Assembly: GCF_014204865.1 (NCBI RefSeq) | Contig: NZ_JACHMG010000001.1 | Coordinates: 6,722,501 to 6,786,500, forward strand | Direction of reading: 5' to 3' | DNA from: Amycolatopsis jiangsuensis | Lineage (GTDB): Bacteria; Actinomycetota; Actinomycetes; Mycobacteriales; Pseudonocardiaceae | DNA length: 64,000 nt | In this document: in pieces, positions 3,756 through 60,516 of the stretch | Numbering within the stretch: the stretch's first letter is position 1 | Layout: each line of letters begins with the position of its first letter | Made by a program: the position numbers and the translations under genes | Notes under the pieces: model-generated | Told to the model about the DNA's origin: nothing | The model's database searches: none | The model's input: the letters and a program-made list of their open reading frames with translations, nothing else

Positions 3756-3774
3756 GCGCCCTGCCGCGCGCCGG

Positions 3775-9113: not shown

Positions 9114-9136
9114 GCATCACCCGCGCCGCGGCCGCT

Positions 9137-40250: not shown

Positions 40251-41729
40251 TCAGATCGACTGGAGCTCGGGTTTGTCCCCGAGCACCCGGCGGCGTACCG
40301 CGAACCAGCCGAGAACCAGTACCAGCGCCAGCGCCGGGATGCCGAACACGACGACGATGAAGTCCTTCTTCTCCCAGAACCGCGGGGAACTCTGCCACCC
40401 CGAGACCGCCATCCCGGCGATCACGAACACCAGGAACCCCAGTCCGGCGTAGCTCGACCACGGCGCGAACGGCGCGCGGAACGGCCGCACCGGCAGCAGG
40501 CCACGGTCGGTGAGCTGCCGCAGGCGGATCTGTGCCGCGAAGATCATCGCCCAGATGAGGATGGTGCCGATGGACGAGGCCTCGATCGCGATCTCGAAGG
40601 CCTCGCCGGGAAAGAGGAAGTTCAGCAGCGCACCCAGGAGGCAGACCGCGGTGGTCGCCAGGATACCGGCCCGGGGAACACCGGACGCGCTCATCCGCGT
40701 GGTCAGCCGCGGGGCCGCCCGGCTCGTGCCGAGGCTGCGCAGTACCCGGCCGGTGGTGTAGAGGCCCGAGTTCAGCCCGGACATCGCCGCGATGATGATC
40801 ACCGCCTGGATGACGTCGGCCATCCAGCCGATGCCCAGCCTGGTGAAGACCGCCACGAACGGCGAGACGTTGACGCCGTTGACCTTCTCGCCGTAGACGG
40901 CGGTGGGAAGGAGACAGACCAGCACCAGGATGGTGCCGCAGTAGAAGACCGCGATCCGGAAGACGACCGACCGGATGGCCTTGGGCACCTCCCGTTCCGG
41001 ATCCTTCGTCTCGCCGGCGGCCACGCCGAGCAGCTCGATCCCGGAATAGGCGAACACCACCCCGGACATCACGAGAATCGGCCCGTACCAGTGGAAGCCG
41101 CCGCCGCTGGGCCAGAATCCGCCCGCGTTCTCCCACAGGTTGGCGATGCCGGCCTGGTGCGCCCCGGGGCCGGAACCCAGCCGGAAGGAGCCTGCGACCA
41201 GGACCACCCCGACCACGAGGAAGACCACGATCGCACCGACCTTGAGCACCGAGGCCCAGAACTCGAACTCGCCGAACGCCCGTGCGGACAGCAGGTTGAC
41301 CGACAGGACCACGGCGAGCGCGATGACGACGGTGAGCCAGGACGGCATGTCCGCCCACCAGTGCTTCACGTAGACGGCGACCGCGGACGGTTCGGCGATA
41401 CCGGTCAGCGTCCAGTGCAGCCAGTAGACCCAGCCGGTCGCGAAAGCGGCCCTTTCGCCGAAGAATTCGCGGGCGTAGGAAACGAAGGCGCCGGAAGACG
41501 CGCGGTGGAGGATCAGCTCACCCAGGGCGCGCATGAGGAAGAACGCGACGATTCCGACCACGACGTAACTGAGGATCAGCGCGGGGCCGGTGCTTCCGAG
41601 CCGGGAAGCCGAACCGAGGAAAAGGCCGGTGCCGATGGTGCCGCCGATGGCGATCATCTGCACCTGACGGCGGCCGAGGGATTTCCGGTACCCTTCTTGC
41701 TCAGCCGCGAACCTGTCGACATGCGTCAT
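40251..41729 (-). CDS. APC-family amino-acid permease (CycA/GabP-like)
   Basis: The 492-residue protein has twelve membrane segments and the AAT-family signature at the start (MIAIGGTIGTGLFLGSAS, residues about 25-42) and SGIELLGVAAGETKDPEREV near residue 230. It resembles CycA (D-serine/D-alanine/glycine) and GABA permeases. Its stop lies 3 bp before the SelA-like gene's start. With that enzyme and a DauR-like regulator it probably imports the amino acid that the operon degrades, possibly a D-amino acid. Confidence 0.88.
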   Translation of the reverse strand: MTHVDRFAAEQEGYRKSLGRRQVQMIAIGGTIGTGLFLGSASRLGSTGPALILSYVVVGIVAFFLMRALGELILHRASSGAFVSYAREFFGERAAFATGWVYWLHWTLTGIAEPSAVAVYVKHWWADMPSWLTVVIALAVVLSVNLLSARAFGEFEFWASVLKVGAIVVFLVVGVVLVAGSFRLGSGPGAHQAGIANLWENAGGFWPSGGGFHWYGPILVMSGVVFAYSGIELLGVAAGETKDPEREVPKAIRSVVFRIAVFYCGTILVLVCLLPTAVYGEKVNGVNVSPFVAVFTRLGIGWMADVIQAVIIIAAMSGLNSGLYTTGRVLRSLGTSRAAPRLTTRMSASGVPRAGILATTAVCLLGALLNFLFPGEAFEIAIEASSIGTILIWAMIFAAQIRLRQLTDRGLLPVRPFRAPFAPWSSYAGLGFLVFVIAGMAVSGWQSSPRFWEKKDFIVVVFGIPALALVLVLGWFAVRRRVLGDKPELQSI

Positions 41730-45083: not shown

Positions 45084-47387
45084 TCAGCCGGTGGTCACGG
45101 TCAGCCGGCCGAGTCCGGTCGCCAGGTCAGGGTGGTCTGCCGGGACCACTCCCGACCACAGTGCCGTCCAGCAGGACGGGCAGCTGTACTGCCGGAACAC
45201 CACGGGCGCGTCGATGTAGTCGCTCGCGGTGGCCAGGATCTGCGGTCCCGCTTCGGTCGGCGCGCCGTCGTAGACCGCGAGGGCGAGCGGGTTTTCTCCG
45301 GTGTCGCCGAGGATTTCGCCGCAGTGCCGGCAGGCGATGTGGTCACCGGCCTGGACGAGGTTGTCGTCGATGCGGTGGCCCGCCGAGAGATCCGCCCGGC
45401 CGCCGGACTCCCCGAGCAGCCGGGACCGGCTCTTGCGCGCCTCTCGCTGCCGCGAGCGCTCGGCGTCGGTCCCGCCGGAATCGACCGCGTCGGCTCGCAC
45501 CACGACCCCGTAGACCGAACGGGCGGCGTCCGCGGTGATCTTCTCCTCGCGCACGTCCCTGGCCACCGCTTCGGGTTCGCGGGCCAGCGGGTCACCGTAC
45601 CCTCCGCCGCCCTGCCAGGTCATGGCGAACACCTCGCCCGGCGCCAGGTAGCTCGAGGCGTAGTTCTGCGCCGGTTCGATGGTTCCGTCCACTTCGGACA
45701 GCTCGCCGGGCAGCGTCCCGGCGGCCAGCAGCTCCTTCACGCGGCTTTCCCTGGCGACCACGTCGAGCCCGGTGTTGCCCGGCAGGCCACCGGAAAGGCC
45801 GCTGTTCTGCGCGACGGCCTTGCCCGCCGACGCCAGCACCAGCCCCATCGGCAGGCTGGTGCCGTGCGGGGTGATCGCCATCGAGGCGCCGAGCCCGCCG
45901 CGGTGTCGGCCCGGTCCACCGGAATCCGGGACCTCACGCCGCCAGAGGGTGAGCACCGGATAGAGGAACTCGGTCATCTCGACGTCCGGGACCCGCCCCA
46001 TCGGAATGCAGAACAGCCCGCCGGTGTCGACGCCGTCGGCCTGCGGGCGCGCACCGTACCCGCCCGCCATCGGCTCCATCATGATCGACAGGAACGGCGC
46101 GGGCTGCTCCCCGCGTTCGTCCAGTCCGGCGATCACCGCGGTGTCCCAGGTCCCGCAACAGGTCGCCTGCACGTTCTTGCCGAGTTCGAGATCGCGGTCG
46201 AGCATCTGGGACAGGCAGTCGGCGATCAGGTTGCCGGTCAGCCACGCCGGCCCGATCGGGCCGCGGCCGACGGCGGCGGGGAACGTCGCGTTGTTGAGCG
46301 TGCCCTCCTCGGTGACGAGATCGAAGCAGCGCATCAGCCCGCCCGCCGACCACGGGATGTCGCCGGCCAGGATGGGCAGCAGGGCGAGCATCACCCCGCC
46401 GCGCATCCCGGCGTACGTGCAGTTGACCACGCCCGCCTGCGGATCGGTACCGGTGAAGTCGAACGTGAGGTGGTCGCCGCTCTTGGTCGTGGTCACCGTG
46501 ATCTTGTGCAGGTTCCGGTCGCCCTCGTGGGACTGGTCCTGGTAACCGGTGGCGCTCCAGCTGCCGTCCGGCAGCGCGGTGAGCTTGCCGCGCAACCGGG
46601 ATTCGGCGTCGGACATCATCCGCTTCATCACGGCCTTGACGGTGTCCGCGCCGTAGTGCTCGATCAGCGCGTGCAGCCGTTCGGCGCCGACGTTGTTCGC
46701 GCCGATCTTGGCGCGCAGGTCGAGGCCGATCAGCATCGGCACCCGGGAACGGCGCACCCAGGCATCCGCGACGTCGCGCTGCAGGGTGCCGCCGCGGACC
46801 ACCTTGATCGGCGGGGTCGGCAGCGATTCGGAGAACACGTCCTCGGCCGCGGGGGAGAACGAGCCGATGCCGACGCCGCCGAGGTCGGGCTGGTGCGCGA
46901 TGGCGCTGGTCCAGGCGAACAGCTTCCCGTCGTGGAACACCGGCTGGTACACGATCACGTCGTTCTGGTGCAGGCCGCCGCCGACCCAGGGATCGTTGCA
47001 CAGGAACATGTCGCCGGACTCGATGCCCGGATTGCTCGCGCGGTGCCGCAGCGTCCAGTAGATCGCCAGGTCGACCGCGCCGACCAGCATCGTGTTGTAG
47101 AGCCCGACCTGGACCTCCTGGCCGAGCTCGTCGGAGATGGCGAAGTCGAAGTCGTTGGCGTCGGTGACGATCGGCGAGCCGGACATCCGCTTCAGCGCCT
47201 CGCCCATCTCGTCGGTCACCGACCAGAGCCGGTGCCGGATCACCTCGTAGGTGAGCGGGTCGAGCGCGTCGATCTGCTCGTCGGTGACGCTGTGCACCGG
47301 CAGCGAAGCGGGCAGCGAGCGGGCGAGCTCGGCCGGGTCGACGGGGCGGCTGGAGAAGACCTCCGAGCCGGGGATCGGCATGCTCAT
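45084..47387 (-). CDS. HyuB-like carboxylase/hydantoinase subunit with acetone-carboxylase-gamma-like tail
   Basis: The 767-residue protein starts at ATG 47387 (GGAGGACC site), overlapping the HyuA-like stop. Residues about 40-580 are a hydantoinase-B/acetone-carboxylase-alpha domain (LDPLTYEVIRHRLWSVTDEM at the start, CNDPWVGGGLHQNDV near 128, FDFTGTDPQAGVVN near 315). The last 90 residues hold a zinc-ribbon pattern, CRHCGEILGDTGEN then CPSCWTAL, as in the separate gamma subunit of acetone carboxylases. This fused tail favours an ATP-dependent carboxylase (acetone/acetophenone type) over a plain hydantoinase. It forms a complex with the HyuA-like subunit. Confidence 0.85.
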   Translation of the reverse strand: MSMPIPGSEVFSSRPVDPAELARSLPASLPVHSVTDEQIDALDPLTYEVIRHRLWSVTDEMGEALKRMSGSPIVTDANDFDFAISDELGQEVQVGLYNTMLVGAVDLAIYWTLRHRASNPGIESGDMFLCNDPWVGGGLHQNDVIVYQPVFHDGKLFAWTSAIAHQPDLGGVGIGSFSPAAEDVFSESLPTPPIKVVRGGTLQRDVADAWVRRSRVPMLIGLDLRAKIGANNVGAERLHALIEHYGADTVKAVMKRMMSDAESRLRGKLTALPDGSWSATGYQDQSHEGDRNLHKITVTTTKSGDHLTFDFTGTDPQAGVVNCTYAGMRGGVMLALLPILAGDIPWSAGGLMRCFDLVTEEGTLNNATFPAAVGRGPIGPAWLTGNLIADCLSQMLDRDLELGKNVQATCCGTWDTAVIAGLDERGEQPAPFLSIMMEPMAGGYGARPQADGVDTGGLFCIPMGRVPDVEMTEFLYPVLTLWRREVPDSGGPGRHRGGLGASMAITPHGTSLPMGLVLASAGKAVAQNSGLSGGLPGNTGLDVVARESRVKELLAAGTLPGELSEVDGTIEPAQNYASSYLAPGEVFAMTWQGGGGYGDPLAREPEAVARDVREEKITADAARSVYGVVVRADAVDSGGTDAERSRQREARKSRSRLLGESGGRADLSAGHRIDDNLVQAGDHIACRHCGEILGDTGENPLALAVYDGAPTEAGPQILATASDYIDAPVVFRQYSCPSCWTALWSGVVPADHPDLATGLGRLTVTTG

Positions 47388-49480
47388 GCGGTCCTCCGGA
47401 TGGTCAGGTTGCCCAGGTGGTCGACGGTGCCGGCGGTACCGCCGGGGACGACGACGGTGGTGGTCGGCACCTCGACGACGGCCGGGCCGGTCAGCACGTG
47501 ACCCGCCCGCAGGGTGCGGTAGTCGTAGATCGGGGTGTCGGCGTAGCCGGTCGCCGCGTCGAGGCATACCGGCCGGGTGGTGAAGGGTTCCGGTTCGCCT
47601 TCGGCCGCCGGCACGCCGGGCAGCTGCGGGCTGAACGGCAGGACTCCGACGCCGCGCACCCGGAACGTGATTGCCTGGATTCCCGCTTCGCGGAATCCGG
47701 CGTCGGCGCCAAACAGTTCGGCGTAGCGCTTCTCGAACGCGGTCGCGGCGTCCTCGATCGCCTGCCGGTCCAGCTCCCCGCCTGCGACCGGGGCGGTGAC
47801 CTCGGCCAGCTGCATGGTGTAGCGCATGTCGATTTCGCGCACCACTTCGATCTTCTCGAACTGCACGCCCTGGCGCGCCAGCCCGTCGCGGACCCGCTGT
47901 TCCAGCTCCGCGAAGTTCTGCTGGGCGCGGACCGGGTCGAACGGGACGACGGTCGGGTCGGACAGCTCCGCGGCGAGCGCGATGTCCGACGAGGCGAGCC
48001 CGAACGCGGAGAACGCCGAGGCCACCGAGCCGAGCGGGACCACCACCTCGTCGCAGCCGACCTCCGCGGCGTAGCCGGCGCAGTGCGCCGGGCCCGCGCC
48101 GCCGAAGGCGTAGAGCACGAAACCACGCGGGTCGTGCCCGGCTTCCACGACGGTTTTGCGCAGCAGGTCACCGGTTTGCGCGTTCTGCACGGTGTAGATC
48201 GCCGCCGCGGCCTCCTCGACCGAGAGCCCCAGCGGCTTGGCGATCCGGATGTCGATGGCCTGACGGGCCAGCTCCAGCGACAGCGGTTTGCGCCCGCCGA
48301 GCAGGCCACGTTCGGGCAGGATGCCCAGCACGAGGTTGGCGTCGGTGTTGGTCGGCTCGGTGCCGCCGTTGCCGTAACAGGCCGGGCCGGGAACGGCCTG
48401 CGCGCTGTGCGGCCCGATGCGGAGGTTGCCGCCGCTGTCGAGCCAGGCGATCGCGCCGCCGCCGGAACCGATCGCGTCGACCCGCAGGGTGGGCACGTTG
48501 ATCGGATGATGGTTGATCACCGTGGTGGTGTCGCGGACCGGTTCGCCGTCGACGATGAGCCCGGCGAGGAAGGTCGTCCCGCCGACGTCGGTGGAGATGA
48601 TGTTGCGGTGGCCGAGCTGGCGGCCGAGCGCCACCGAACCGACCACGCCGCCGGTCAGCACCGAGCCGACCGTGCTGATTGCGGCGGCCGGGGCCTCGGC
48701 GGCCGCGACCGCTCCGCCGTTGGACTGCATGACCAGCAGCGGACCGCGCAAACCGTTGTCCCGCAACGAGGTTTCCAGGGTGCCGAGGTAGTCGCGCAGG
48801 CCGGGGCCGACCTGGGTGCTCATGATCGTGGTGGCGTTGCGGGCGAACTCGCGGATGCGCGGGCTCACCTCCGAGGAGAGCGCCACGAACAGCTCCGGTG
48901 CTTCCTCCCGGATCAGCTCCCGCAGGCGCTGTTCGTGCACCGGGTTGCGGAAGGACCAGAGCAGCGAGACCGCGATGGCCTGCACACCTTCGGCGACCAG
49001 CGCGCGGATCGCGGTGCGGGCCTGCTGCTCGTCCAGTGCGACGACCACGGTGCCGTCGCGGTCGATGCGCTCGGTGACCTCCAGTGCGTGCCGTTTCGGC
49101 AGCAGTGCGTGGTTCTTGTCCTGGCCGAGCACGTGCTGCAGCTCGTGCGGTGCGCGGCCGAGGTACCGGCCCTCGACGTTCATGATGAAGATCGAGTCGC
49201 GGTGGCCCTTGGTGGTGAGAAAACCGACCGGTGGCACGTTGCCCATCACCAGCGCGTTGAGCGAGGAGGTGGTGCCGTGGGCGATGTGGTGGGTCTGCGC
49301 CAGCATCTCCGGCAGCGTCGTGCCGAGCTGTTCGGCGAGCAGCCCGAGGACGTCGAGCACGCCCTGGGAGTAGTCCGGCGGGGTGGACGGGGACTTGGCG
49401 GCGAGCACCGTCCCGGCGTCGTCGTCGACCACGGCGTCGGTGAACGTGCCGCCCACGTCCACGCCGATGACATAGGCCAT
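47384..49480 (-). CDS. HyuA-like carboxylase/hydantoinase subunit
   Basis: The 698-residue protein (ATG 49480, AAGGAG site) is a hydantoinase-A/acetone-carboxylase-beta protein with the ASKHA ATPase fold: GVDVGGTFTDAVVDDDAG at the N-terminus (phosphate loop), GTTSSLNALV near residue 70, STDVGGTTFLAGLIVDG near 292 (second phosphate motif) and YAFGGAGPAHCAGYAAEVG near 455. It should phosphorylate or otherwise activate the substrate with ATP while the partner catalyses carboxylation or hydrolysis. It is transcribed before the HyuB-like gene and diverges from the flavoprotein operon. Confidence 0.88.
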   Translation of the reverse strand: MAYVIGVDVGGTFTDAVVDDDAGTVLAAKSPSTPPDYSQGVLDVLGLLAEQLGTTLPEMLAQTHHIAHGTTSSLNALVMGNVPPVGFLTTKGHRDSIFIMNVEGRYLGRAPHELQHVLGQDKNHALLPKRHALEVTERIDRDGTVVVALDEQQARTAIRALVAEGVQAIAVSLLWSFRNPVHEQRLRELIREEAPELFVALSSEVSPRIREFARNATTIMSTQVGPGLRDYLGTLETSLRDNGLRGPLLVMQSNGGAVAAAEAPAAAISTVGSVLTGGVVGSVALGRQLGHRNIISTDVGGTTFLAGLIVDGEPVRDTTTVINHHPINVPTLRVDAIGSGGGAIAWLDSGGNLRIGPHSAQAVPGPACYGNGGTEPTNTDANLVLGILPERGLLGGRKPLSLELARQAIDIRIAKPLGLSVEEAAAAIYTVQNAQTGDLLRKTVVEAGHDPRGFVLYAFGGAGPAHCAGYAAEVGCDEVVVPLGSVASAFSAFGLASSDIALAAELSDPTVVPFDPVRAQQNFAELEQRVRDGLARQGVQFEKIEVVREIDMRYTMQLAEVTAPVAGGELDRQAIEDAATAFEKRYAELFGADAGFREAGIQAITFRVRGVGVLPFSPQLPGVPAAEGEPEPFTTRPVCLDAATGYADTPIYDYRTLRAGHVLTGPAVVEVPTTTVVVPGGTAGTVDHLGNLTIRRTA

Positions 49481-49525
49481 GACTGGCGCTCCTTTGCGCA
49501 GTGAGGGCTTGCTTACGGGAGCGTA

Positions 49526-49589
49526 GACTATTCAACACATGTGAAGAGAGTCAACCTTGACTTCGCGCTGTCCGTATCGTCGAATAGTC
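49526..49589. promoter_or_regulatory. Divergent promoter region with several dyads
   Basis: GACTATTC (49526-49533) and GAATAGTC (49582-49589) form an inverted pair flanking a perfect palindrome AGTCAA-CC-TTGACT (49549-49562). The sequence AGAGTCAACC (49547-49556) recurs as AGACTCAACC at 54287-54296 upstream of the VOC gene. These are probable binding sites of the local TetR-type regulator (53511) coordinating both divergent operons. Confidence 0.55.
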
Positions 49590-49626
49590 GACGTTCGTGT
49601 AAATTCATCTTCTTCGGAGGTCCGTG

Positions 49627-51147
49627 ATGCAGCCACGACGGGTCGCGGTGCTGGGCGGCGGCCCAGGCGGGCTCTACGCCGCCCGCCTGCTCAAACTCGC
49701 GTTTCCCGCCAGCGACATCCGCGTGTACGAACAGGGGGACCCGGACACCACGTTCGGGTTCGGCGTCGGCTTGGCCGCGGGTACCCAGCGCAATCTGGAA
49801 CGGGCGGACCCGGACACGTTGCGTGACCTGGTCACCGCCGGCGCGCGGCACGACATGACGATGCAGGTCGGCGACCAGCTGGTGCGGGTACGCAACGACC
49901 ACCTCGTCGGCGTGGCCCGCACCGAACTGCTGGCGATCCTGCAGCGGCACGCGGAAAAAGCCGGTGTACAGCTGGAATTCGGGACCCGGCACACGGCGGG
50001 CGAGCTGGACGCCGAGCTGGTGATCGCGGCCGACGGGGTCAGCAGCGCGACCCGCGAAGGCGGCGGATTCGGCACCCGGATCGAGACCGGGGCCGGGCTC
50101 TACCTGTGGTGTGGTGCGGGTTTCGCCCTGCCGGACGCGGTTTTCGCGCCGGTGCGGACCGAGTTCGGCACCTTCGTCACCCACGCCTACCCGTACTCCG
50201 GTGGCCGTTCGACCTTCCTGATCGAGACCGACGAGCGGACGTGGCGGCGCGCCGGATTCGACGCGACGACGACCGCGCTGGAGCAGCCCGGCATCCCTTC
50301 CGGTGCGTCGGACGAGATTTCCTTGCGGTACCTGGAGAAGATCTTCTCCGAACAGCTGCACGGCCATCCGCTGATCGGCAACCGGACGCGGTGGCAGCGC
50401 TTCCGGACGGTCCGGTGCGACCGCTGGTCCGCGGGGAACGTCGTGCTGCTGGGCGATGCCGCGCACACCGCGCACTTCTCGATCGGCTCGGGGACGAAAC
50501 TGGCGATGGAGGACGCCATCGGGCTGGTCGACGCGCTGCGCGAGGCACCCGACGCGGCCACCGCGTTCGCGCGGTACGAGCGCTCCCGGCGTCCGGCGGT
50601 CGAGCGGATGCAGGAGCTGGCCCGGCGCAGCCAGCTGTGGTGGGAATCGTTCCCGTCGCGGATCGGGCTGCCGGTGGAGCGCCTGATCGTGGCCTACATG
50701 TCGCGGGCGGGCAACGTCTCGCTGGACCGCTTCGCCCGCACCAGCCCCGACGCCGTGGGCACTGCCCTTCGCCAGTACGGCGGGCAGCCGCCTGAGGGGG
50801 ACCTCGTCGAATGGGTGCTCGACCGTCCGCTGACGCACGGCGGGCGCGTCTTCCCGAACCGAGTCACCGTCCCGGAACTCGAGCGGCTGCACGTCGACCT
50901 TCGCGACCCGTGGTCGGCGGAGGCCGACGCACTCGTGGGCCGTGGCCGAGCGGCCGGCGGTGTCCTGGTCACCGGTCCACCGGTGCGCGAAGCTGTGCTC
51001 ACCCGGCTCGACGTGGCCGAACGGATCCGGCTGGAGACCGGGGCGCTGACCGCGGTCGAGGCGCCGGCCGGACTGCGGGACGACCTGGCCGCCGGTCTGG
51101 TCAGCGGCCGCACCGATCTGGTGCGGATGACCGAGGAGGTCGCATGA
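49627..51147 (+). CDS. FAD monooxygenase, salicylyl-CoA-5-hydroxylase-like
   Basis: The 506-residue protein starts at ATG 49627 (CGGAGG six bases upstream; a GTG just before is an alternative). It is a PHBH-fold flavin monooxygenase: GGGPGG (residues 10-15), DTTFGFGVGL near 40, and the second FAD motif GDAAHTAHFSIGSGTK from about residue 276. The last block is typical of CoA-thioester hydroxylases (salicylyl-CoA 5-hydroxylase, anthraniloyl-CoA monooxygenase N-domain). It is coupled by ATGA to an acyl-CoA ligase gene, so the likely substrate is an aromatic acyl-CoA. Which one is inference. Confidence 0.87.
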   Translation: MQPRRVAVLGGGPGGLYAARLLKLAFPASDIRVYEQGDPDTTFGFGVGLAAGTQRNLERADPDTLRDLVTAGARHDMTMQVGDQLVRVRNDHLVGVARTELLAILQRHAEKAGVQLEFGTRHTAGELDAELVIAADGVSSATREGGGFGTRIETGAGLYLWCGAGFALPDAVFAPVRTEFGTFVTHAYPYSGGRSTFLIETDERTWRRAGFDATTTALEQPGIPSGASDEISLRYLEKIFSEQLHGHPLIGNRTRWQRFRTVRCDRWSAGNVVLLGDAAHTAHFSIGSGTKLAMEDAIGLVDALREAPDAATAFARYERSRRPAVERMQELARRSQLWWESFPSRIGLPVERLIVAYMSRAGNVSLDRFARTSPDAVGTALRQYGGQPPEGDLVEWVLDRPLTHGGRVFPNRVTVPELERLHVDLRDPWSAEADALVGRGRAAGGVLVTGPPVREAVLTRLDVAERIRLETGALTAVEAPAGLRDDLAAGLVSGRTDLVRMTEEVA

Positions 51148-52775
51148 GTACCGTTCCCTATCCCGCCGCGGCGATCCGGCGCTACCGCGAAGCCGGGCTG
51201 TGGGGGACCGAAACCATCGCCACGGCGTTCCACCGGGTCGCGCGGGCGCATCCGGAGCGGGACGCGGTCGTCGCGCTGGACGGGCGGCTCACCTTCGCCG
51301 AGCTGGACGAGCGCACCGACCTGCTCGCCGCCGGCCTCGCCGGGCTGGGGCTGCGTCCCGGTGATCCGGTGCTGTTCCAGGTCGGGAACCGGCTCGCCGC
51401 GGTGGTCGCGTGGTACGGCGTGCTGAAGGCGGGGCTCGTCCCGGTCGCCACGCTCGCCGCGCACCGCGGGCACGAGATCGGCGAGATCAGCAGGCGGGTC
51501 GGCGCGGTGGCGCATCTGGTCGAGGCCGGGCTGCCCGGGTTCGACCTCGTCGGATTCGCCGAGCAGCAGCGCCGTGGCCACCCGAGCCTGCGGCACGTTC
51601 TCGTACTGGGGACCGATCCACGGGGCATTTCCGTCCAGGACCTCGAATCCGGGACGAGCCCGGAGGTGGCCCGCGCCCTGGTCGAGCGGATCCAAGCCGG
51701 CCTCGATCCGGACGGCGTCGCGGTGCACCAGCTTTCCGGCGGCACCACCGGCGTGCCCAAGGTCATCCCGCGGCTGCACGCCGAATACTGGTACAACGCC
51801 GCCGAATACGCACGTTCCTGGGGATGGACGGCGGAAACCCGGGTGGCCCACCTGATCCCGATCATCCACAACGCGGGCGTCGTCTGCGCGGTGCACGGTC
51901 CGCACAGCGTGGGGGCCTGTCTCGTGCTGGGCGTGCCGGACCTCGACGAATCGTTGCCGCTGATGGCGCGGGAAGCCGTGACGCACGTGCTGCTCGGGCA
52001 CGGCCACTACCGCGCCGCCGACCATCCCGGCTTCGCCGCGGCCACCGAGGCGGTCACGCAGATCGTCTTGTCCGGCAGCAAGGTTCCGCCGTCGCTGTTC
52101 GACACACTGGAGTCCCGCGGGTTCTGGTCGGGGCAGCTTTTCGGGATGGGTGAAGGGCTTTTCCTCACGACCAGGCCGGGAGCGCCGCGCGACGCGCGGC
52201 TCACCACGGTCGGCACTCCGCTGTCCGCGCTCGACGAGGTACGCATCCTGGAGCCCGGCACGGAAACCGAAGTGCCGCCGGGAGAAGTGGGCGAACTGTG
52301 CGCCCGTGGTCCCTACACGCTGCGCGGCTACTTCGACGCGGCCGAGCACAACGCCAGGGCCTTCACCTCGGACGGCTTCTACCGCACCGGCGACCTCGCC
52401 GCTCTCGTGGAGATCGAGGGCGCGCGGTACGTGTCCATCGAAGGCCGGATCAAGGACCTGATCAACCGCGGTGGCGAGAAGGTCAACGCCGAGGAGATCG
52501 AGCTGCTGCTACTGCGCCACCCGCGAATCACCGGCGCCGCCGTCGTTCCGATGCCGGACCCGCGGCTCGGTGAACGGGCCTGCGCCTACCTCGTCGTGGA
52601 CGGTCCCGAGCTGACGCTGCCGGAGATCCAGCAGCACTTTGCCGCGCTCGAGGTCGCGAAATTCAAGTGGCCCGAACGTGTCGAGCACCTTTCGCAGATT
52701 CCCCGCACCCTGGTCGGCAAGGCGGACAAGAAGAGCCTGACGGCCGACATCGCCCGGAAAGTGAGTGCCGGATGA
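51144..52775 (+). CDS. Aryl/acyl-CoA ligase (AMP-binding family)
   Basis: The 543-residue protein starts at ATG 51144 with GAGGAGG, overlapping the monooxygenase stop. It is an ANL adenylating enzyme: LSGGTTGVPKVIPR (about residue 197), GMGEGLF (about 335), the hinge and lysine region GRIKDLINRGGEKVNAEE (about 435) and the C-terminal Lys in GKADKKSL. It resembles 2,3-dihydroxybenzoate-AMP ligases and salicylate-CoA ligases. Paired with the preceding flavoprotein it would activate an aromatic acid for ring hydroxylation as a CoA thioester. Confidence 0.87.
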   Translation: MSTVPYPAAAIRRYREAGLWGTETIATAFHRVARAHPERDAVVALDGRLTFAELDERTDLLAAGLAGLGLRPGDPVLFQVGNRLAAVVAWYGVLKAGLVPVATLAAHRGHEIGEISRRVGAVAHLVEAGLPGFDLVGFAEQQRRGHPSLRHVLVLGTDPRGISVQDLESGTSPEVARALVERIQAGLDPDGVAVHQLSGGTTGVPKVIPRLHAEYWYNAAEYARSWGWTAETRVAHLIPIIHNAGVVCAVHGPHSVGACLVLGVPDLDESLPLMAREAVTHVLLGHGHYRAADHPGFAAATEAVTQIVLSGSKVPPSLFDTLESRGFWSGQLFGMGEGLFLTTRPGAPRDARLTTVGTPLSALDEVRILEPGTETEVPPGEVGELCARGPYTLRGYFDAAEHNARAFTSDGFYRTGDLAALVEIEGARYVSIEGRIKDLINRGGEKVNAEEIELLLLRHPRITGAAVVPMPDPRLGERACAYLVVDGPELTLPEIQQHFAALEVAKFKWPERVEHLSQIPRTLVGKADKKSLTADIARKVSAG

Positions 52776-53494
52776 CCCACCGGATCGGCCTGATCGTGCC
52801 CAGCTCCAATGTCACCGTGGAAACCGAGATCCCGGCGCTGCTCGCCCGCCGTCCCGAACGGTTTTCCTTCCACAGCAGCCGGATGCGGATGCACCAGGTG
52901 TCGCCCGAGGAACTGAAGGCGATGAACGCCCAGCGCGAACGGTGTGTCGGCGAGCTGGCCGACGCGCACGTCGACGCGCTGCTGTACGCCTGCCTCGTCG
53001 CACTGATGGCCCAGGGGCCGGGCGAGCACCAGCGGGTCGAACACGAAGTCCGCGGACAGCTTCCGGAGACCGCGGTGCTGTCCAGCGCGGGTGCGCTAGT
53101 CGACGGCCTGGAGGCGCTCGGCGCCTCCCGGATCGCGCTGGTCACGCCGTACTTGCGGCCACTCGCCGAACAGGTCGTCGGCTACCTGGAGTCCGAAGGA
53201 TTCACCGTCGTCGACTGGGCCGCACTGGAAGTCGGCGACAACACCGAGGTCGGGTGCATCCCCGGGGACCGGGTCATGGCGGCCGCCCGGGGTCTCGACC
53301 TTTCGTCCGCGGACGCGCTGGTCATCTCGGCGTGCGTGCAGATGCCGTCGCTGGAGCTGGTCGGGCCGGCGGAGGAGGAGTTCGGGCTTCCGGTGCTCTC
53401 CGCGGCCACCGCGGGGGCCTACGCCCTGCTCACCGGGCTCGGGCTCGACCCCGTGCTGCCCGGTGCCGGACGACTGCTCGCGGGGCCGCGGTGA
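52772..53494 (+). CDS. Maleate isomerase / arylmalonate decarboxylase family protein
   Basis: The 240-residue protein starts at ATG 52772, overlapping the ligase stop (ATGA). It has the Asp/Glu-racemase fold with GLIVPSSNVTVETEIPALL at the N-terminus and the two catalytic cysteines Cys74 (YACLV) and Cys188 (SACVQ), both present as in maleate cis-trans isomerases. Conversion of maleate to fumarate is a closing step after ring cleavage of gentisate-like or pyridine compounds, which fits the upstream hydroxylase and ligase. An arylmalonate decarboxylase or racemase role is less likely with two Cys. Confidence 0.85.
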   Translation: MTHRIGLIVPSSNVTVETEIPALLARRPERFSFHSSRMRMHQVSPEELKAMNAQRERCVGELADAHVDALLYACLVALMAQGPGEHQRVEHEVRGQLPETAVLSSAGALVDGLEALGASRIALVTPYLRPLAEQVVGYLESEGFTVVDWAALEVGDNTEVGCIPGDRVMAAARGLDLSSADALVISACVQMPSLELVGPAEEEFGLPVLSAATAGAYALLTGLGLDPVLPGAGRLLAGPR

Positions 53495-53510
53495 GCCCTA
53501 CGATCAGCAC

Positions 53511-54221
53511 ATGAGCGGCAACGGGTCCGGACGCAAGCGCAGCACGGCGAGCACCGCGCGCCGGGAGCTGGTGGAGAACGAGCTGTACGAACACGCCACC
53601 CGGCTGTTCGCCGAACGCGGGTTCGCCGGTACCAGCCTGCAGGACATCGCGGACGCGATCGGGATGACCCGGCCGGCGCTCTACTACTACGTCAAAAGCA
53701 AGGACGAGCTGCTGGCCAAGCTGGTCGCCGAGGTGACCAGCGGGCCGCTCGACGAGCTGACCGCGGTGTCCGCGCGCGGTCTCGATCCGGTCGAGACGCT
53801 GCGCGCGATGGTGGCGGTGCTCGCCGGGCGCCAGGCGCGCCAGCCCGAGCGGTTCCGGCTGCTGATCCGTTCCGAGGCGGAGCTGCCCGAGGAGCTGACC
53901 GAGGCCTACGACCAGGGTCGTCGCGCGGTGCTGAAGGCCGTTGCCGGAGTGATCGACGGCGGCGTGCGGGCAGGCCGGTTCCGGCCGGTCGACGCGCGCG
54001 TCGCGGCGCTCGGGGTGCTCGGCATGTGCAACTGGGTGGCCTGGTGGTTCCATCCGGGTGGACGGGACACCGCCGAGAGCGTGACCGCTCAGCTCGCCGA
54101 TATGGCGGTGTTCGCGTTGCAGCGGCCCGACCGCCAGGCCGTGGACGACGACAGCCCCGCCGCCGCGCTCAAGCTGCTGCGCCAAGACCTCGACCACCTG
54201 GAACGCCTGCTGGACCAGTAA
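53511..54221 (+). CDS. TetR family regulator
   Basis: The 236-residue protein (ATG 53511; no clear ribosome site, 16 bp after the isomerase stop) has a Lys/Ser/Arg-rich N-terminal tail, the TetR helix-turn-helix (SLQDIADAIGMTRPALYYYV, residues about 43-62) and a TetR_C ligand domain of the type found with acyl-CoA-responsive regulators. It sits inside the catabolic operon and is the obvious candidate regulator for both the divergent hyu-like operon and the VOC operon, whose promoters share an AGASTCAACC element. Confidence 0.9.
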   Translation: MSGNGSGRKRSTASTARRELVENELYEHATRLFAERGFAGTSLQDIADAIGMTRPALYYYVKSKDELLAKLVAEVTSGPLDELTAVSARGLDPVETLRAMVAVLAGRQARQPERFRLLIRSEAELPEELTEAYDQGRRAVLKAVAGVIDGGVRAGRFRPVDARVAALGVLGMCNWVAWWFHPGGRDTAESVTAQLADMAVFALQRPDRQAVDDDSPAAALKLLRQDLDHLERLLDQ

Positions 54222-54275
54222 CCGCCCCCGGCGCCGCCCGGCCGGGTACCGGTCTGCCGTGCGTTTCGTCTCACC

Positions 54276-54296
54276 AGTCAAACTATAGACTCAACC
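54276..54296. promoter_or_regulatory. Candidate operator upstream of VOC gene
   Basis: AGTC-N8-GACT (54276-54291) overlaps AGACTCAACC (54287-54296), which nearly matches AGAGTCAACC in the divergent promoter at 49547-49556. It lies about 57 bp upstream of the VOC gene start in an AT-rich segment. Confidence 0.5.
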
Positions 54297-54352
54297 GTAA
54301 ATTCGCGCGTATGGTCGAGGGCGGATCACCAGACCGCTCCTGGAGGTAGCAA

Positions 54353-54997
54353 GTGACTGAGCTCGAGCACCGTGTACAGGGCGTCGACCACGTCGCCTTC
54401 CCGACCTTCGACCCGGCCGGGACCGTCCGGTTCTACCGGGACGTCCTCGGCTTCCCGGTCGTCCACTCGATCTGCGCGGCGGGCTGGGGACCCGAGGATC
54501 ACCCGGACTTCATCCACTTCTTCTTCGACATCGGCAACGACGACCGGATCGCGTTCTTCTACTACTTCGGCACCGCACCCGATGTCGGCGGCGCGGAGGG
54601 CGTGAAGGGCGACGTGTACGCGCGGTTCGGCGCCGACGTGCCCGACTTCTTCGTGCGCTCGCGGCACCTCGCGATCCACGTCGACAACGAGGAAGACCTG
54701 CTGGAGTACCGGCGCCGGCTCGACGCGAGCGACTGGCCGGTGGAGATGCAGATCCAGCACGAGACCATCGAATCCATCTACACCCACGATCCGAACGGGT
54801 ACATGTTCGAGATCACCCGGGCGATGCGGCCGGTCACCCCGCAGGAGGACCTCGACGCGAACCTCACCATCGACGCGCTGCTGGACGTCGTCGGCGAGCC
54901 GGAGCCGTCCTTCGGGAAACTGCTGGCGCGCAAGGCGGAGCTGATCGTGGAACGGGCCGCGGACTGGGCGGCGGCGCCGTCGGAGGCCGGCCGATGA
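54353..54997 (+). CDS. VOC superfamily protein (glyoxalase/extradiol dioxygenase-like)
   Basis: The 214-residue protein starts at GTG 54353 with GGAGG six bases upstream. It has a single-chain paired beta-alpha-beta-beta-beta fold: VDHVAF (His13), RHLAIHVDN (His109) and NGYMFEITR (Glu153), giving a metal triad as in glyoxalases and extradiol ring-cleavage dioxygenases. The C-terminal 55 residues form a helical extension. With an aromatic hydroxylase upstream it may open the ring or act on the cleavage product. It is coupled by ATGA to the next small gene. Confidence 0.85.
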   Translation: MTELEHRVQGVDHVAFPTFDPAGTVRFYRDVLGFPVVHSICAAGWGPEDHPDFIHFFFDIGNDDRIAFFYYFGTAPDVGGAEGVKGDVYARFGADVPDFFVRSRHLAIHVDNEEDLLEYRRRLDASDWPVEMQIQHETIESIYTHDPNGYMFEITRAMRPVTPQEDLDANLTIDALLDVVGEPEPSFGKLLARKAELIVERAADWAAAPSEAGR

Positions 54998-55242
54998 CCG
55001 TGCTCTACGTCCTCGACGTCCCGGAGAACACCGCGGTGGCGAAGGTCGCCGGCCAGGACCCGGTGGTCACGGTCGGGCAGCTCGGGCCGTACTTCACGAT
55101 CAGCTCCGACGGCCCGATCGTGATCGACCGGCGGGCCACCGGCTGCCGGCACGCCGTCTGGTACTCGTGCGTTGCCGGAGTGTCCCGCGATTCCCGGATC
55201 ACCCAGCACGACAAGGACGCACTGCGCGTGGAGCGCGGATGA
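54994..55242 (+). CDS. Small 82-residue protein of unknown function
   Basis: Start ATG 54994 has a GGAGG site and overlaps the VOC stop (ATGA), and its stop overlaps the hydrolase start (ATGA), so it is firmly part of the operon. The sequence is beta-rich with two cysteines (GCRHAVWYSC) and a repeated Val/Asp-rich N-terminus. I do not recognise a family. It may be a small subunit or chaperone for a neighbouring enzyme. Its position between tightly overlapped genes argues strongly that it is real. Confidence 0.7.
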   Translation: MTVLYVLDVPENTAVAKVAGQDPVVTVGQLGPYFTISSDGPIVIDRRATGCRHAVWYSCVAGVSRDSRITQHDKDALRVERG

Positions 55243-56486
55243 CCGCGCCGGCCCGCCTGGGCGAGGGCCGCTACCTGAGCGCCGGGGAACGCCCCGGCGC
55301 CACGGTCACTTCGGTACACGAACTGACCACATCGGACGGTGCGACGGTGCGGGGTGTCCTCGCCACGGTCCCGGGTGCGCGAACCGTGGTGTGCCTGATG
55401 CACCCGCGGCAGGACCTGTCGCACCATCCGCTGGTGCCTTTGCTGCTGCGGGCCGGCGCCGCGGTGTGGACCCAGCACACCCGCTCGGTGAACAACGACC
55501 TGAACCTGCTCCACGAACAGGCCCTTCTGGACGTCGCAGCGGGGCAGGTTTTCTTGCGTGACAAGGGTTTCGAGCAGGTGGTCGTGCTGGGCCACTCCGG
55601 TGGCGGGACGCTGTTCGCGTTCTACGCCGAACAGGCCGCGCTTCCGGCGGCCGAGCGGATCGCGGTCACGCCGGGCGGTCGCCCGGTCGGGCTCGCCGAG
55701 GCCACCATGCCGGTGCCGGACGGTGCGGTGTTCCTCGCCCCGCATCCCGGGCAGGGAAAGCTGTTGCTGGCGTGCATCGACCCTTCGGTGGCCGACGAGG
55801 GCGATCCGCTTTCGGTCGTGCCGGAGCTGGATCCGTGGAGCCCGGCCAACGGCTTCGTGGAACCTCCCGGAAGTTCGCGGTATACCGAGGATTTCCTGCA
55901 GCGCTACCGCGCCGCGCAGCGTGCCCGGGTCGCCCGGATCGATGCGGTGGCCCGCGAAGCACTGGCCCGCACCGTGGAAGCCCGCGCGGCGTTCAAGAAG
56001 TCCGGCGCGGCGGCCGACCGGCGGCGCAGCCTCGCGCCGAAGATCATCACCGTCTTCCGCACCGACGCCGATCCGCGCTGCGTCGACCTTTCACTGGACC
56101 CGAGTGAGCGGCCCTATGGCTCGCTGTTCGGCAAACGCCCGGATCTCATCGACTACGGCCAGGTCGGCTTCGGCCGGTTGAGCACTCCGGAAGCCTGGCT
56201 GTCCACCTGGTCCGGACTCAGCTCGAACGCCGATTTCGCCCGGTGCGCACCGGGTGTCACGGCACCGACGCTGTTTCTCGAACTCACCGGCGACCAAGCC
56301 GCGTTCCCCGCCGACAGCCGGCGCATGGCCGAGGCGCTCGGCGCGGAGGACCGCACCGTGGCGACCGTGCGCGGCCTGCACTTCGGCGGCGCGATCGCGG
56401 AAGGCGAACCGACCGGCAACCAGCTCGCTGCCGAGGAAATCGTCCATTGGCTGGACCACCGGTTTCCCCTCGCACCAGTGAAGTGA
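55239..56486 (+). CDS. Alpha/beta hydrolase, large variant
   Basis: The 415-residue protein starts at ATG 55239, overlapping the small gene's stop. It is an alpha/beta hydrolase with HPRQDLSHHP near residue 53, nucleophile in GHSGGG (about residue 112), a long lid insertion (about 150-300, rich in Arg/Ala) and a C-terminal GLHFGGA block with the catalytic His near 385. It may hydrolyse an ester, thioester or C-C bond in the aromatic pathway, perhaps releasing gentisate-like acid from its CoA ester. That role is inference. Confidence 0.82.
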   Translation: MTAPARLGEGRYLSAGERPGATVTSVHELTTSDGATVRGVLATVPGARTVVCLMHPRQDLSHHPLVPLLLRAGAAVWTQHTRSVNNDLNLLHEQALLDVAAGQVFLRDKGFEQVVVLGHSGGGTLFAFYAEQAALPAAERIAVTPGGRPVGLAEATMPVPDGAVFLAPHPGQGKLLLACIDPSVADEGDPLSVVPELDPWSPANGFVEPPGSSRYTEDFLQRYRAAQRARVARIDAVAREALARTVEARAAFKKSGAAADRRRSLAPKIITVFRTDADPRCVDLSLDPSERPYGSLFGKRPDLIDYGQVGFGRLSTPEAWLSTWSGLSSNADFARCAPGVTAPTLFLELTGDQAAFPADSRRMAEALGAEDRTVATVRGLHFGGAIAEGEPTGNQLAAEEIVHWLDHRFPLAPVK

Positions 56487-56673: not shown

Positions 56674-59600
56674 TCACTCCCGCGTACACCTGGACGCCCT
56701 GACCGCTCCCGAAAGGTCGGCAGACCTGGAATACGTGTCACCGAGTACCGCACACCAACCTGCGGACGGTTTCAGCCCGACGGTCACGATACCGTGCGCA
56801 TCCACCGGAACAGTGACCTCCGAACCGGTGCCGGATTCCGTTACCTGCAGCCGTTTCCCGGTCGGGGATTCGGACGGGGTCTCCAGTTGGGCCTCCGCTG
56901 TCTTGAACGGCAGCCGCAGTTTTACGGTTCCTCCCTTTCCGGTGACTTCGAGTAGTCGCACCGTCAGTGGCAGAGCAGGCGAGCTCGCGTCGGCGTACGC
57001 CTGTTTCACGGTCTGTACGAAGACGTTCTGCGCGTCCACTGACACGAGCGACTGTGCCCCGGCTGCGAAAGCACCCTCCTGCGAGGGGGAGAGCGCCGCT
57101 GATTCGAGGGGTGTCCGGACACTCCGGCCGTAGCCGGTCGCGGCCACCGGCTCGAACGCGCCGTCGTGGCTGGTGATCGAGTAGTGGTAGCTGATCGGCC
57201 CGGACTGCGCCTGCCGGTAGTTCGTGTTCCAGATGCTGTTGAAGGCGTAGGAGAACGCCGAACCGTTGTCCGGCAGCGGCGCTGCCGGGTCGGGGCCGGA
57301 CCGGTCGAGGCGGCCGGGCCGGGGTTGCAGTTCCATGGTGCGGATGTGCCCGAACTCCATGAGCGGAGCGTCCTGACTGGACAGCGTCACCCCGGACTGG
57401 TGGTTCGACACGTCCGCATAGCCGCGCACGCCCTGCCAGTCCATTGCGGATCCGGGCATCTGACCCGAGCCCAGCGTCACCGGCGTACCGGGAGCCTCGT
57501 AGGTCACCGTGGGTTTGCGCACCTCGAACGGGAAGGCGAAGTAGCCCTCCTCCGGTGTGGTCACCCAGGTCTTGTCGATGTCGTCGGTGATGTCCAGCCG
57601 TTTCGTGTTCGCGTACAGGGTGAGCGTGGCCGCCGCCGACTCGACGCCGGTTGCCGCGCCGTGCGGGTCCTTGCCGCCGGGGGTGTCGGGATACGCGACC
57701 TTGAGGCTGACGCTGACCGGGCCCTGTGACTGCACGGAGACCGTCGCGCTCTTCGGGGACCACTGCTTCTCCGGCGTGGTGTGGCCGTCGCGCTTCGGAT
57801 TCGGCCGGTACACGTACTGGTTCAGCGCGAACTCCGACCGGGAGTCGACGAGCTGACGATGGGCTTGCTTGTCGTACACCGAAGTCACCGCACCGGTGCT
57901 GGTCGACAGGGTCACCCGGTAGTACTGGTTCTCCAGCGTCCCGGTTCGGGCGTCCCAGTGCAACGCCGGATCCGGCTTGCTCGCCTGGTTCGCGCCGGCC
58001 CGCAACTCGTAGGTCCGGTAGCCGTCGGAGGGCACCTTCGCCGCGACGAACCGGATCTTTCCCTTGCCGGCCGGTTCGTAGGGCGTGGCCGCATCCGTGG
58101 CGACATCGACGAGCTGACCGGACCAGCCGTCCGGCACCGTCGCGGTCACGACGTCACTGCGTACCACCGACACCGGGTTGAACACGGCAAGTCCCGGACT
58201 GCCGGAAGGATTCGCGATCTTCCCGCCCAGCGAGCGGGTGGCCGAGTCCATGGCCTCGGTACTGAGCCGGGAAGCCTTGTCCGCGTGGGCTTTCTTCACC
58301 GCCCATTGTGGATCGTCGGCCTGCAGGTCCGGACTCGCCCAGGTGTGCTCGGTATAGAGTTCAGCCTCCCGGTCGGCGGAGTCGACGACACGTTGCAGGT
58401 CCGGGTCCGAGCCGAGCGTGCCCAGCGTTTCCGCGGCCGTGATACGGGACTGCGCTCGCGTCGTCTCGGCGGTTTCGGCGGCCGAGGATCCCGCGCCGTC
58501 GGACCACCAGTCGGGGTAGTCGCCGTGCTTGACCGGCAACTGCCCGACGTCCTGGGAGGTCGGGTCGGGGGAGTACCCGGACTCGGAGACCTCGCCGTGC
58601 GGGGTGGTGGCGTCGGCGAGGTAGCGCGACGGCGTCGACATCTTCAGCTTCGGCCAGCTGTACTGCTGGCTGTAGGCGTGGATCACGTCCGAGATGCCGT
58701 TCATCGGCGGTGTCGTGTCCTGGAAAAACATCAACGGGTACACCGACTGCGGGTACCTGCTGACCTGCAGCCCCGGGGCGCGGTTGACGAGCCCGTCGGC
58801 CATCTTGCCGGCGAGGGTCGCGACCGTGGCGGACGAGGGTGCCTCCACCGGGTGGTAGGGCAGTTCCGGCGTGATGCCGCACGGGTCGGTCGGGTCATCG
58901 GTCGGCCACGGCGCCATGGTGCATTTGAAGGCCTCGTCGAGACCGTATCCCTCGTTGTAGGAGTTGGCGCCGAAGAAGGTCAGGACCTTGCTGCCGTCCG
59001 GGGCCTTCCAGTGGAACAACGCCGGCGAGTTCTGGTCGCTCGCCGGTTCCGTCCAGCGTCCGGTGTGGTCCGGATTGGTCCCGTTGACCAGCAGCTTCAC
59101 CCCGTCCTTCGCGAGCGTCTGGATCTTCTGCGCGGTCACGCCCGCGATGTCCTCCTGCATCGCGGTGGTCGCCGGCACACCGAACTTCTCCGCGAACGTC
59201 CGGACTCCCTTGTTCTGGGAACGGATCAGCTGCTCGGTGCTCGACAGGTCACCCAGGTTGTTGTCGTACCCCGCGGTGTTCTCGATCTGCCCGGAGGCGA
59301 CGCACTTGCCCAGCGCGGCGACCTTGTCGGCCGGGCGGTCCTGCACGTAGGAGTCCAGCATCCACGCCTGCTCGTTGGTCCAGCGGAACCGCTCCGCGTC
59401 CGGACGGTGCGCGGTGGCCTGGCATTGGGACACCGCCTGGTCGAGATAGGCGTCGCTGAGCTGACGGGTGGTCGCCTGGTCGTAGTGGTAGCCGATGTCC
59501 AGGTGGTTGCCGTGGAGGATCTCGAAGGTCCAGCGCCGCTGGTAGGGCAGGCTCATCGGGTACGTGCCGGCCGGCTGCCCGGTGAGCGACGGAGTGACCT

Positions 59601-60516
59601 CGAGCTTCGCCGCGGCGAGCGAAGGCGCCGGAGGCACCTCGATCCGCTGCGTCGACCGTCCCTTGGGCAGCGAGGCGATCTTGGTCTCGGAAGTCGCCTC
59701 GCCGAGCGTGGAGCTGACGACGGCAGGACCGGTGTCCGCGGTGTTGTCGACGGCCACGTCCACGAGCTGGCGATCCTGCCCGCCGACGGATTTGAACAGC
59801 ACTGTGGGCGTCATCGACAGGACCCGCACCGCGCCGGGCTTCGCCGGAGCCGGCACGAGCCGCACCGAGTCGTAGGCAGCCCAGGAACCCGCGGTGGTGC
59901 GCAGGGAAATGCTGTTCTGCCCGGCGTTCAGCGTGTCCTTCGGAATCAGGACACCGATCTCGTGCGGTTGGTCGGAATAGCCGACGGTGCCTTCGAAGTA
60001 GCCGACGCCGTACGCGCCGGCACCACCACCCGCCGGCAATGTCACCGACTCGACCGGGCGCCCGTTGGACAGAACCTCGATGGTGGGCGGGTCCGTGTCG
60101 TGCGTGTCCACGTAGTCGACCTGGAGGAGCAGATCGCCGGCGTTCCCGTTTTCCAGTCCATAGTGGATGGTGGCCGTGTGGTCCTTGCCGCCCGCCCAGG
60201 CGTCGGCCGGGCCGGGCTGCACATAGGACCAGTCCTTCTCAGGCGTGCTGTGGCCCACGGTGTAGTCCACGTCGTGGGGGAAAGCCGACGCGTACTTCTG
60301 GAAGTCGCCCGGCGCCAATGCCAGTTCCGCGTCGGACCGGTCCGCCGCGCCGATGGCGAAGACCGACGGCTGGGTGTATCCGCCGGAGGCGGCTGCGCCT
60401 GTTCCGCTGGTACCGGCCTCGCTGACCGCCGGCACCGACGCCGTGACCACCACTGCGACGAGCGCGTAGACGAACCACCACCGCGAACGGCGTTTTCCAG
60501 CTGCGTGTGACTGCAT
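56674..60516 (-). CDS. Secreted GH38 alpha-mannosidase
   Basis: The 1280-residue protein (ATG 60516, AAGGAGG site) has a signal peptide (about residues 1-34), an N-terminal beta-sandwich that resembles the carbohydrate-binding domain of rhamnogalacturonan lyases (about 60-220), and a GH38 catalytic part beginning with HGNHLDIGYHYDQ (about 334) and NEQAWMLD (about 379). The mannosidase C-terminal beta domain follows (to about 1250). It should remove alpha-mannose from glycans outside the cell. A LacI-type operator candidate lies about 110 bp upstream. The last 25 residues (after VGLKPSAGW) look unlike the family and abut the remnant region. Confidence 0.88.
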   Translation of the reverse strand: MQSHAAGKRRSRWWFVYALVAVVVTASVPAVSEAGTSGTGAAASGGYTQPSVFAIGAADRSDAELALAPGDFQKYASAFPHDVDYTVGHSTPEKDWSYVQPGPADAWAGGKDHTATIHYGLENGNAGDLLLQVDYVDTHDTDPPTIEVLSNGRPVESVTLPAGGGAGAYGVGYFEGTVGYSDQPHEIGVLIPKDTLNAGQNSISLRTTAGSWAAYDSVRLVPAPAKPGAVRVLSMTPTVLFKSVGGQDRQLVDVAVDNTADTGPAVVSSTLGEATSETKIASLPKGRSTQRIEVPPAPSLAAAKLEVTPSLTGQPAGTYPMSLPYQRRWTFEILHGNHLDIGYHYDQATTRQLSDAYLDQAVSQCQATAHRPDAERFRWTNEQAWMLDSYVQDRPADKVAALGKCVASGQIENTAGYDNNLGDLSSTEQLIRSQNKGVRTFAEKFGVPATTAMQEDIAGVTAQKIQTLAKDGVKLLVNGTNPDHTGRWTEPASDQNSPALFHWKAPDGSKVLTFFGANSYNEGYGLDEAFKCTMAPWPTDDPTDPCGITPELPYHPVEAPSSATVATLAGKMADGLVNRAPGLQVSRYPQSVYPLMFFQDTTPPMNGISDVIHAYSQQYSWPKLKMSTPSRYLADATTPHGEVSESGYSPDPTSQDVGQLPVKHGDYPDWWSDGAGSSAAETAETTRAQSRITAAETLGTLGSDPDLQRVVDSADREAELYTEHTWASPDLQADDPQWAVKKAHADKASRLSTEAMDSATRSLGGKIANPSGSPGLAVFNPVSVVRSDVVTATVPDGWSGQLVDVATDAATPYEPAGKGKIRFVAAKVPSDGYRTYELRAGANQASKPDPALHWDARTGTLENQYYRVTLSTSTGAVTSVYDKQAHRQLVDSRSEFALNQYVYRPNPKRDGHTTPEKQWSPKSATVSVQSQGPVSVSLKVAYPDTPGGKDPHGAATGVESAAATLTLYANTKRLDITDDIDKTWVTTPEEGYFAFPFEVRKPTVTYEAPGTPVTLGSGQMPGSAMDWQGVRGYADVSNHQSGVTLSSQDAPLMEFGHIRTMELQPRPGRLDRSGPDPAAPLPDNGSAFSYAFNSIWNTNYRQAQSGPISYHYSITSHDGAFEPVAATGYGRSVRTPLESAALSPSQEGAFAAGAQSLVSVDAQNVFVQTVKQAYADASSPALPLTVRLLEVTGKGGTVKLRLPFKTAEAQLETPSESPTGKRLQVTESGTGSEVTVPVDAHGIVTVGLKPSAGWCAVLGDTYSRSADLSGAVRASRCTRE

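Follow-up and report, generated by a model that had tools for sequence, protein, structure and literature searches.

The salicylyl-coenzyme A (CoA) 5-hydroxylase/gentisate route is encoded by the sdg genes of Streptomyces, and a cupin/GST/FAH set is known as a lower pathway. According to PMC5214803, a CoA ligase gene adjoins the genes of acetophenone carboxylase in Aromatoleum aromaticum, and a gamma subunit belongs to the carboxylases of acetone and acetophenone but is missing from all hydantoinase complexes. The zinc site of this gamma subunit consists of four cysteines (PMC5543143, in excerpt). Here, we describe a locus of nine genes within positions 45084-56486 of a window of 64,000 nucleotides (C1:6722501-6786500) from the 8.05-Mb, two-contig genome of Amycolatopsis jiangsuensis. 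The genes hyuA and hyuB run leftward from a 143-bp gap, and seven others run rightward: a flavoprotein (FMO), an acyl-CoA ligase (LIG), a maleate isomerase (AMD), a TetR-type regulator, a VOC-family protein (VOC), a small protein (ORP) and a hydrolase (HYD).

We read the locus as a catabolic module that would convert an ortho-hydroxyaryl methyl ketone of the 2'-hydroxyacetophenone type to fumarate, with ORP as an effector, and assign this reading a probability of roughly 45%. It is based on the gamma-like domain of HyuB, the gene order of a related locus, the genes beside a paralogous HyuAB, the acyl pocket of the ligase, a recurrent two-arm gene order, the identity of AMD and the matches of VOC. 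The original prediction had likewise drawn a line from ketone to CoA ester, ring cleavage and fumarate. Its named genes and their divergent arrangement are present according to open reading frame (ORF) coordinates and family matches, and its enzyme assignments are supported, though not proven for the carboxylase, whereas the novelty that it expected of ring opening by a VOC protein is not supported.

We infer the substrate, the order of the steps, each reaction and the partner of ORP as follows. HyuA and HyuB, with the gamma part fused, would use ATP and bicarbonate to carboxylate the ketone, and LIG would turn the resulting beta-keto acid into its CoA ester. FMO would add a hydroxyl group para to the first, giving a hydroquinone-type ring, and could act either on the beta-ketoacyl-CoA directly or on salicyl-CoA formed by an unlinked thiolase. 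VOC may then cleave the bond that links the ring carbon bearing the side chain to the adjacent C-OH, as a homogentisate dioxygenase does, after which HYD would split the maleyl compound into maleate and a side-chain fragment and AMD would isomerize maleate to fumarate. ORP, made from the same coupled message, may act as an effector by binding VOC and/or HYD, or else FMO. If true, Actinobacteria would have a complete aerobic pathway by which hydroxyaryl ketones are degraded to fumarate and in which a gamma-fused ketone carboxylase and a lower pathway of VOC, hydrolase and maleate isomerase replace the cupin/GST/FAH set. We did not find the module described in the open-licence literature searched, which was available partly in excerpt; it may be in print elsewhere.

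The candidate carboxylase, ligase and flavoprotein

HyuA carries the motifs DVGGTFTD at residue 8 and DVGGT at residue 298. The metal-site residues His140, Asp143 and His165 of HyuB are kept in 44 of the 45 aligned rows (the remaining row is gapped); these residues, whose roles are described in the excerpts of PMC8453981, are shared by carboxylases and hydrolases. The C-terminal 117 residues of HyuB contain two CxxC pairs, whose four cysteines are invariant in an alignment of 21 rows, and the pairs recur in 45/45 HyuB rows (L053 left out). Compared by hhalign with a set of eight acetone carboxylase gamma sequences from other genomes, some of them gamma proteins and some gamma-like domains, this domain reached 97.3% and a score of 69.6, where the highest of 30 column shuffles scored 16.0; with a stricter choice of four gamma proteins the value was 87.0%. 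Searching the PDB sequences for the domain returned nothing meaningful. In one related locus (L221), the gamma-like domain has a gene of its own immediately behind hyuB, an order that matches the acxABC order given in the excerpts of PMC5214803. A counterpart of the four-cysteine gamma part of the Acx and Apc carboxylases is found here as a fused C-terminal domain. Given this domain, a ketone carboxylase is favoured over a lactam hydrolase, though not firmly, in line with the carboxylase originally predicted.

Paralogous gamma-fused HyuAB pairs occur in other settings. In locus L189 (G298:C12:322901-342800, 127-11392), the pair is followed by genes for a ligase, a thiolase, an Oxidored_FMN protein and an FMO, a candidate route from 2-aminoacetophenone to anthraniloyl-CoA. 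The genome of the window itself holds a second gamma-fused HyuAB (L190, G000:C1:7270000-7289900, 8765-13803), near VOC-domain and hydrolase genes. The idea that every gamma-type HyuAB locus has a ligase and a thiolase was rejected, as neither was found with the references used in eight further loci (L190, L221-L227).

The closest solved sequence to LIG is the salicylate-AMP ligase 5wm2 (336 bits), which agrees with the acyl-CoA ligase originally proposed and points to the salicylate kind. From the salicylate pocket of 5wm2, LIG keeps HN and the late Cys, while Phe is replaced by Ala and VPP by GHG. The acyl pocket reads GH[GVA] and SG[AST] in 46 of the 48 ligases from HyuA-bearing clusters (VPP and GGS in 5wm2), the exceptions being L133 (GPF/SGK) and L189b (NAT/GPQ). 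The ligase of L036, a locus counted as HyuA-less solely because its hyuA is cut by a contig end, has GHG/SGA. The five ligases with VPP/GGQ, near the VPP/GGS of 5wm2, all come from HyuAB-less clusters (L020, L023, L026, L032 and L134), as do those of L131 (GPF/SGK) and L139 (LTT/AIP); the genomes of L020 and L023 carry a full cluster elsewhere (L039 and L044). These five form a single clade (support 1.0) and so count as one evolutionary split rather than five. This pattern fits a HyuAB that would produce the acid activated by LIG.

FMO matches the family NF006101 ('salicylyl-CoA 5-hydroxylase/oxidoreductase') over residues 6-371 with 298 bits, below the curated cut-off of 1078, which supports a protein resembling salicylyl-CoA hydroxylase, as originally assigned. 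The match is limited to positions 2-370 of the 768 in the profile, so that FMO is without the second half. Its closest solved sequence is VioD. A separate frame of 786 aa elsewhere in the window genome gives a weaker match.

Ring opening, maleate formation and the effector-like protein

An extradiol pattern, which we take to be PS00082, is found in 52/52 VOC rows. His105, His136, Tyr143 and Glu153 are present in all of these and His13 in 51, and the five residues stand opposite His, His, His, Tyr and Glu of 9u42, the nearest solved sequence (profile E 9.5e-12), with about 23% identity in the structural alignment. VOC is therefore the likely ring-opening enzyme by signature and homology, as had been proposed. 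The title of 9u42 names it as a homogentisate 1,2-dioxygenase of Acinetobacter, so that the novelty expected of ring opening by a VOC protein is not supported. The structure model of VOC (predicted local distance difference test, pLDDT, 76) confirms the VOC fold only, with dioxygenases, epimerases and others scoring alike; dioxygenases did not stand out in the fold search, and 9u42 came first in Foldseek and was not among 50 VIA-align rows.

Maleate isomerases use two catalytic cysteines. AMD is 73% identical (170/234) to 2xec, presumably the maleate isomerase of Nocardia farcinica, and retains Cys74 in 49/50 and Cys188 in 50/50 rows, which bears out the predicted maleate isomerase and makes maleate a probable intermediate. 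In HYD, Ser120, Asp352 and His381 are present in 50/50 rows, and a PDB sequence search gave no solved relative better than E 0.07; a hydrolytic split of the maleyl compound to maleate would fit. An AMD paralog (54% identical) lies elsewhere in the window genome (L193, G000:C1:7694000-7713900), beside isochorismatase/hydrolase, molybdenum hydroxylase, MFS and FMO genes. By its look we take this to be a nicotinate-type cluster; its presumed ring-opening gene was named by none of the models.

ORP had been passed over as an orphan, and its predicted structure (pLDDT 97.8) is folded like the effectors of diiron monooxygenases. It matches the MmoB/DmpM fold over all 82 residues in Foldseek and VIA-align, with a Z gap from 10.2 to 4.7, and hhalign to effectors gave 77% and a score of 31.3, whereas none of 30 shuffles exceeded 15.1. 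The ORP of genome G142 is the best PF02406 match below the cut-off among 150 genomes (20.7 bits, cut-off 25). No diiron hydroxylase was seen among the eight cluster proteins scanned, and 6 of the 12 module-bearing genomes, including that of the window, lack a PF02332 match (E ≤ 1e-5). We tentatively propose that ORP is a true effector of MmoB/DmpM descent whose ancestor served a diiron monooxygenase and which now assists a mononuclear VOC ring-cleavage dioxygenase or the hydrolase coupled to it. That it is a fold look-alike with an unrelated task seems somewhat unlikely: in its favour, Pfam gives nothing for the window ORP up to E 10, the best PDB sequence match does not go beyond E 1.2 and the 77% of the profile match is moderate, but the Z gap, the shuffled controls and the G142 protein speak against it. 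To our knowledge, no oxygenase effector of the MmoB/DmpM fold works outside diiron enzymes, and no paper on an orphan effector of this type was found in the open-licence literature. If a true effector, ORP would be the first, and it can now be tested whether an MmoB-type effector controls a non-diiron oxygenase or a hydrolase.

Conservation, gene order and setting

The best 80 FMO-matching loci among the matches listed were collected, and the first 48 (L008-L055) were checked for gene content. All nine genes are present in 38 of these 48; the incomplete loci are L009, L011, L013, L020, L023, L026, L032, L036, L050 and L052, some of which are cut by contig ends, and in the genome of L013 HyuA lies about 23 kb away from the remaining genes. 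A survey of 298 genomes from the order finds HYD in 12 of them (E ≤ 1e-60) and VOC in the identical 12 (E ≤ 1e-40). FMO (E below 1e-100) and a close HyuA (query: the HyuA paralog of L189) are each found in 11 of these 12. With this conserved content and co-occurrence the cluster is not a chance assembly, and the two divergent halves, on whose joint conservation the original prediction had hinged, are indeed kept together. The commonest order, in 20 of 55 loci compared, is an arm of hyuA-hyuB-LIG-FMO-TetR diverging from an arm of AMD-VOC-ORP-HYD. As several further orders occur, the genes remain linked through rearrangement. One duplicate (L137, identical to L046) is contained in the 55 loci, the 50 VOC loci, the 52 VOC rows and the 50 HYD and AMD rows.

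HyuAB is dispensable for the remainder of the module. The HyuAB-less loci L134 (G191), L026 (G299) and L032 (G300) keep FMO, VOC, AMD and HYD, and no HyuA at E ≤ 1e-120 was found anywhere in these three genomes. Genome G142 has LIG-HyuAB-VOC-ORP-HYD but no AMD; its FMO is more distant, and genes of MaoC and FMN-reductase type are also present. A second VOC-ORP-HYD set in the window genome (L131, G000:C1:1533000-1552900; ORP 49%, VOC 64% and HYD 63% identical to those of the window) is accompanied by ligase, P450, Fer2-domain, FMN-reductase-type and TetR genes, of which we read the Fer2-domain gene as the reductase of the P450. Since these variants carry different upper genes, VOC-ORP-HYD looks like a portable core supplied by differing upper pathways.

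Features of the locus are collected in Table 1. Overlaps of 4 bp join hyuA/hyuB, FMO/LIG, LIG/AMD, VOC/ORP and ORP/HYD, and gaps lie on both sides of the TetR gene. The start of hyuB was placed at the Met of MSMPIPG, inside a longer ORF that extends to 47567. The divergent gap contains a perfect 8-bp inverted repeat, GACTATTC/GAATAGTC (49526-49533 and 49582-49589), read by eye as a possible regulator site. Outside the cluster, a relative of DgaE-type pyridoxal-phosphate ammonia lyases (below cut-off) at 39129-40247 adjoins an amino-acid permease gene (40251-41729), and a minus-strand ORF of 1280 aa (56674-60516) lies directly beyond the cluster.

Table 1 Features of the nine-gene locus, in window positions
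Feature	Position	Strand	Basis
hyuB, hydantoinase/ketone-carboxylase-type beta subunit with C-terminal gamma-like four-Cys domain	45084..47387	-	PF02538, E 2.1e-133
gamma-like zinc domain of hyuB	45087..45437	-	Cys 36, 39, 86, 89 of the piece
hyuA, ATP-binding alpha subunit	47384..49480	-	PF01968, PF05378, PF19278
putative divergent promoter region	49481..49623	.	sequence read
FMO, salicylyl-CoA 5-hydroxylase-like flavoprotein, 507 aa	49624..51147	+	PF01494
LIG, acyl-CoA (or AMP) ligase, aryl-acid type	51144..52775	+	PF00501
AMD, maleate cis-trans isomerase	52772..53494	+	2xec match, 340 bits
TetR-type regulator	53511..54221	+	PF00440, PF17932
VOC, candidate ring-cleavage dioxygenase	54353..54997	+	profile match to 9u42
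ORP, MmoB/DmpM-fold effector-like protein, 82 aa	54994..55242	+	predicted structure, Foldseek, VIA-align, hhalign
HYD, alpha/beta hydrolase, presumed C-C hydrolase	55239..56486	+	weak PF00561, E 0.0012

Rival readings and known systems

Several observations weigh against a ketone carboxylase and would suit an ATP-dependent lactam or imide hydrolase, whose substrate would be N-heteroaromatic, as is the case for IaaCE when indoleacetate is broken down anaerobically. Caprolactamase models outscore acetophenone carboxylase models for both subunits, Acx and Apc are not the closest enzymes by sequence score, and PDB sequence scores are nearly tied (acetophenone carboxylase 382, N-methylhydantoinase 380, 5-oxoprolinase 370 bits), so that sequence scores alone are undecisive and lean slightly to caprolactamase. 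On the gamma-like domain, PF08882 reaches 14 bits, under its cut-off of 21, and no gamma motif was found in the near relatives L222-L225. The excerpts of PMC5214803 describe a gamma-lactamase of the family that acts in indoleacetate metabolism and caution that sequence cannot assign function with certainty in the HyuAB family. ATP-dependent hydantoinases and lactamases, however, would have alpha and beta parts only, whereas the gamma-like domain, absent from hydantoinase complexes in those excerpts, is present in every one of the 45 HyuB rows. We consider the hydrolase improbable and keep the ketone carboxylase.

The place of HyuAB in the pathway can also be read differently. LIG, FMO, VOC, ORP, HYD and AMD could form a gentisyl-CoA-type salicylate route to which HyuAB merely feeds salicyl-CoA, made from 2'-hydroxyacetophenone by carboxylation, activation and a housekeeping thiolase, with everything downstream as in the HyuAB-less clusters. 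There, in L026 and L032, FMO (57%), VOC (76-83%) and AMD (69-71%) resemble those of the window more than the ligase does (46-47%), the ligases have a salicylate-like pocket, and an MFS gene of apparent aromatic-acid type is present; the thiolase of L189 stands beside a paralogous HyuAB-ligase pair. Yet no thiolase family is common to at least 4 of the 48 clustered loci, and HYD too is just 49% identical in L026 and L032, which leaves this route unlikely. Highly improbable is a HyuAB that acts last, carboxylating a methyl ketone freed by HYD from the ring-fission product: hydrolysis of a maleyl 1,3-diketone would leave such a ketone on chemical grounds, but HyuAB lies on the LIG/FMO arm in the commonest gene order and its presence tracks the ligase pocket. 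We retain the order in which HyuAB would act first on the hydroxyaryl ketone.

Compared with acetophenone carboxylase and benzoylacetate-CoA ligase, the locus has alpha, beta and gamma parts and a neighbouring CoA ligase gene. Unlike in Aromatoleum aromaticum, gamma is fused to beta, the locus continues with an FMO and a candidate for ring cleavage, and alpha', epsilon and thiolase are not seen among the nine genes. With the salicylyl-CoA 5-hydroxylase/gentisate route it shares a ligase close to the salicylate type and an FMO of that hydroxylase kind, but VOC, HYD and a maleate isomerase are present and no cupin dioxygenase is found among the nine genes. VOC shares the aligned His/His/His/Tyr/Glu residues with the VOC-type homogentisate 1,2-dioxygenase 9u42 at about 23% identity, and AMD shares both cysteines with 2xec at 73%. 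ORP resembles the MmoB, T4moD and DmpM effectors of bacterial multicomponent monooxygenases in fold over its whole length; unlike these, it falls below the Pfam cut-off, has no diiron hydroxylase in its cluster and is coupled to VOC and hydrolase genes.

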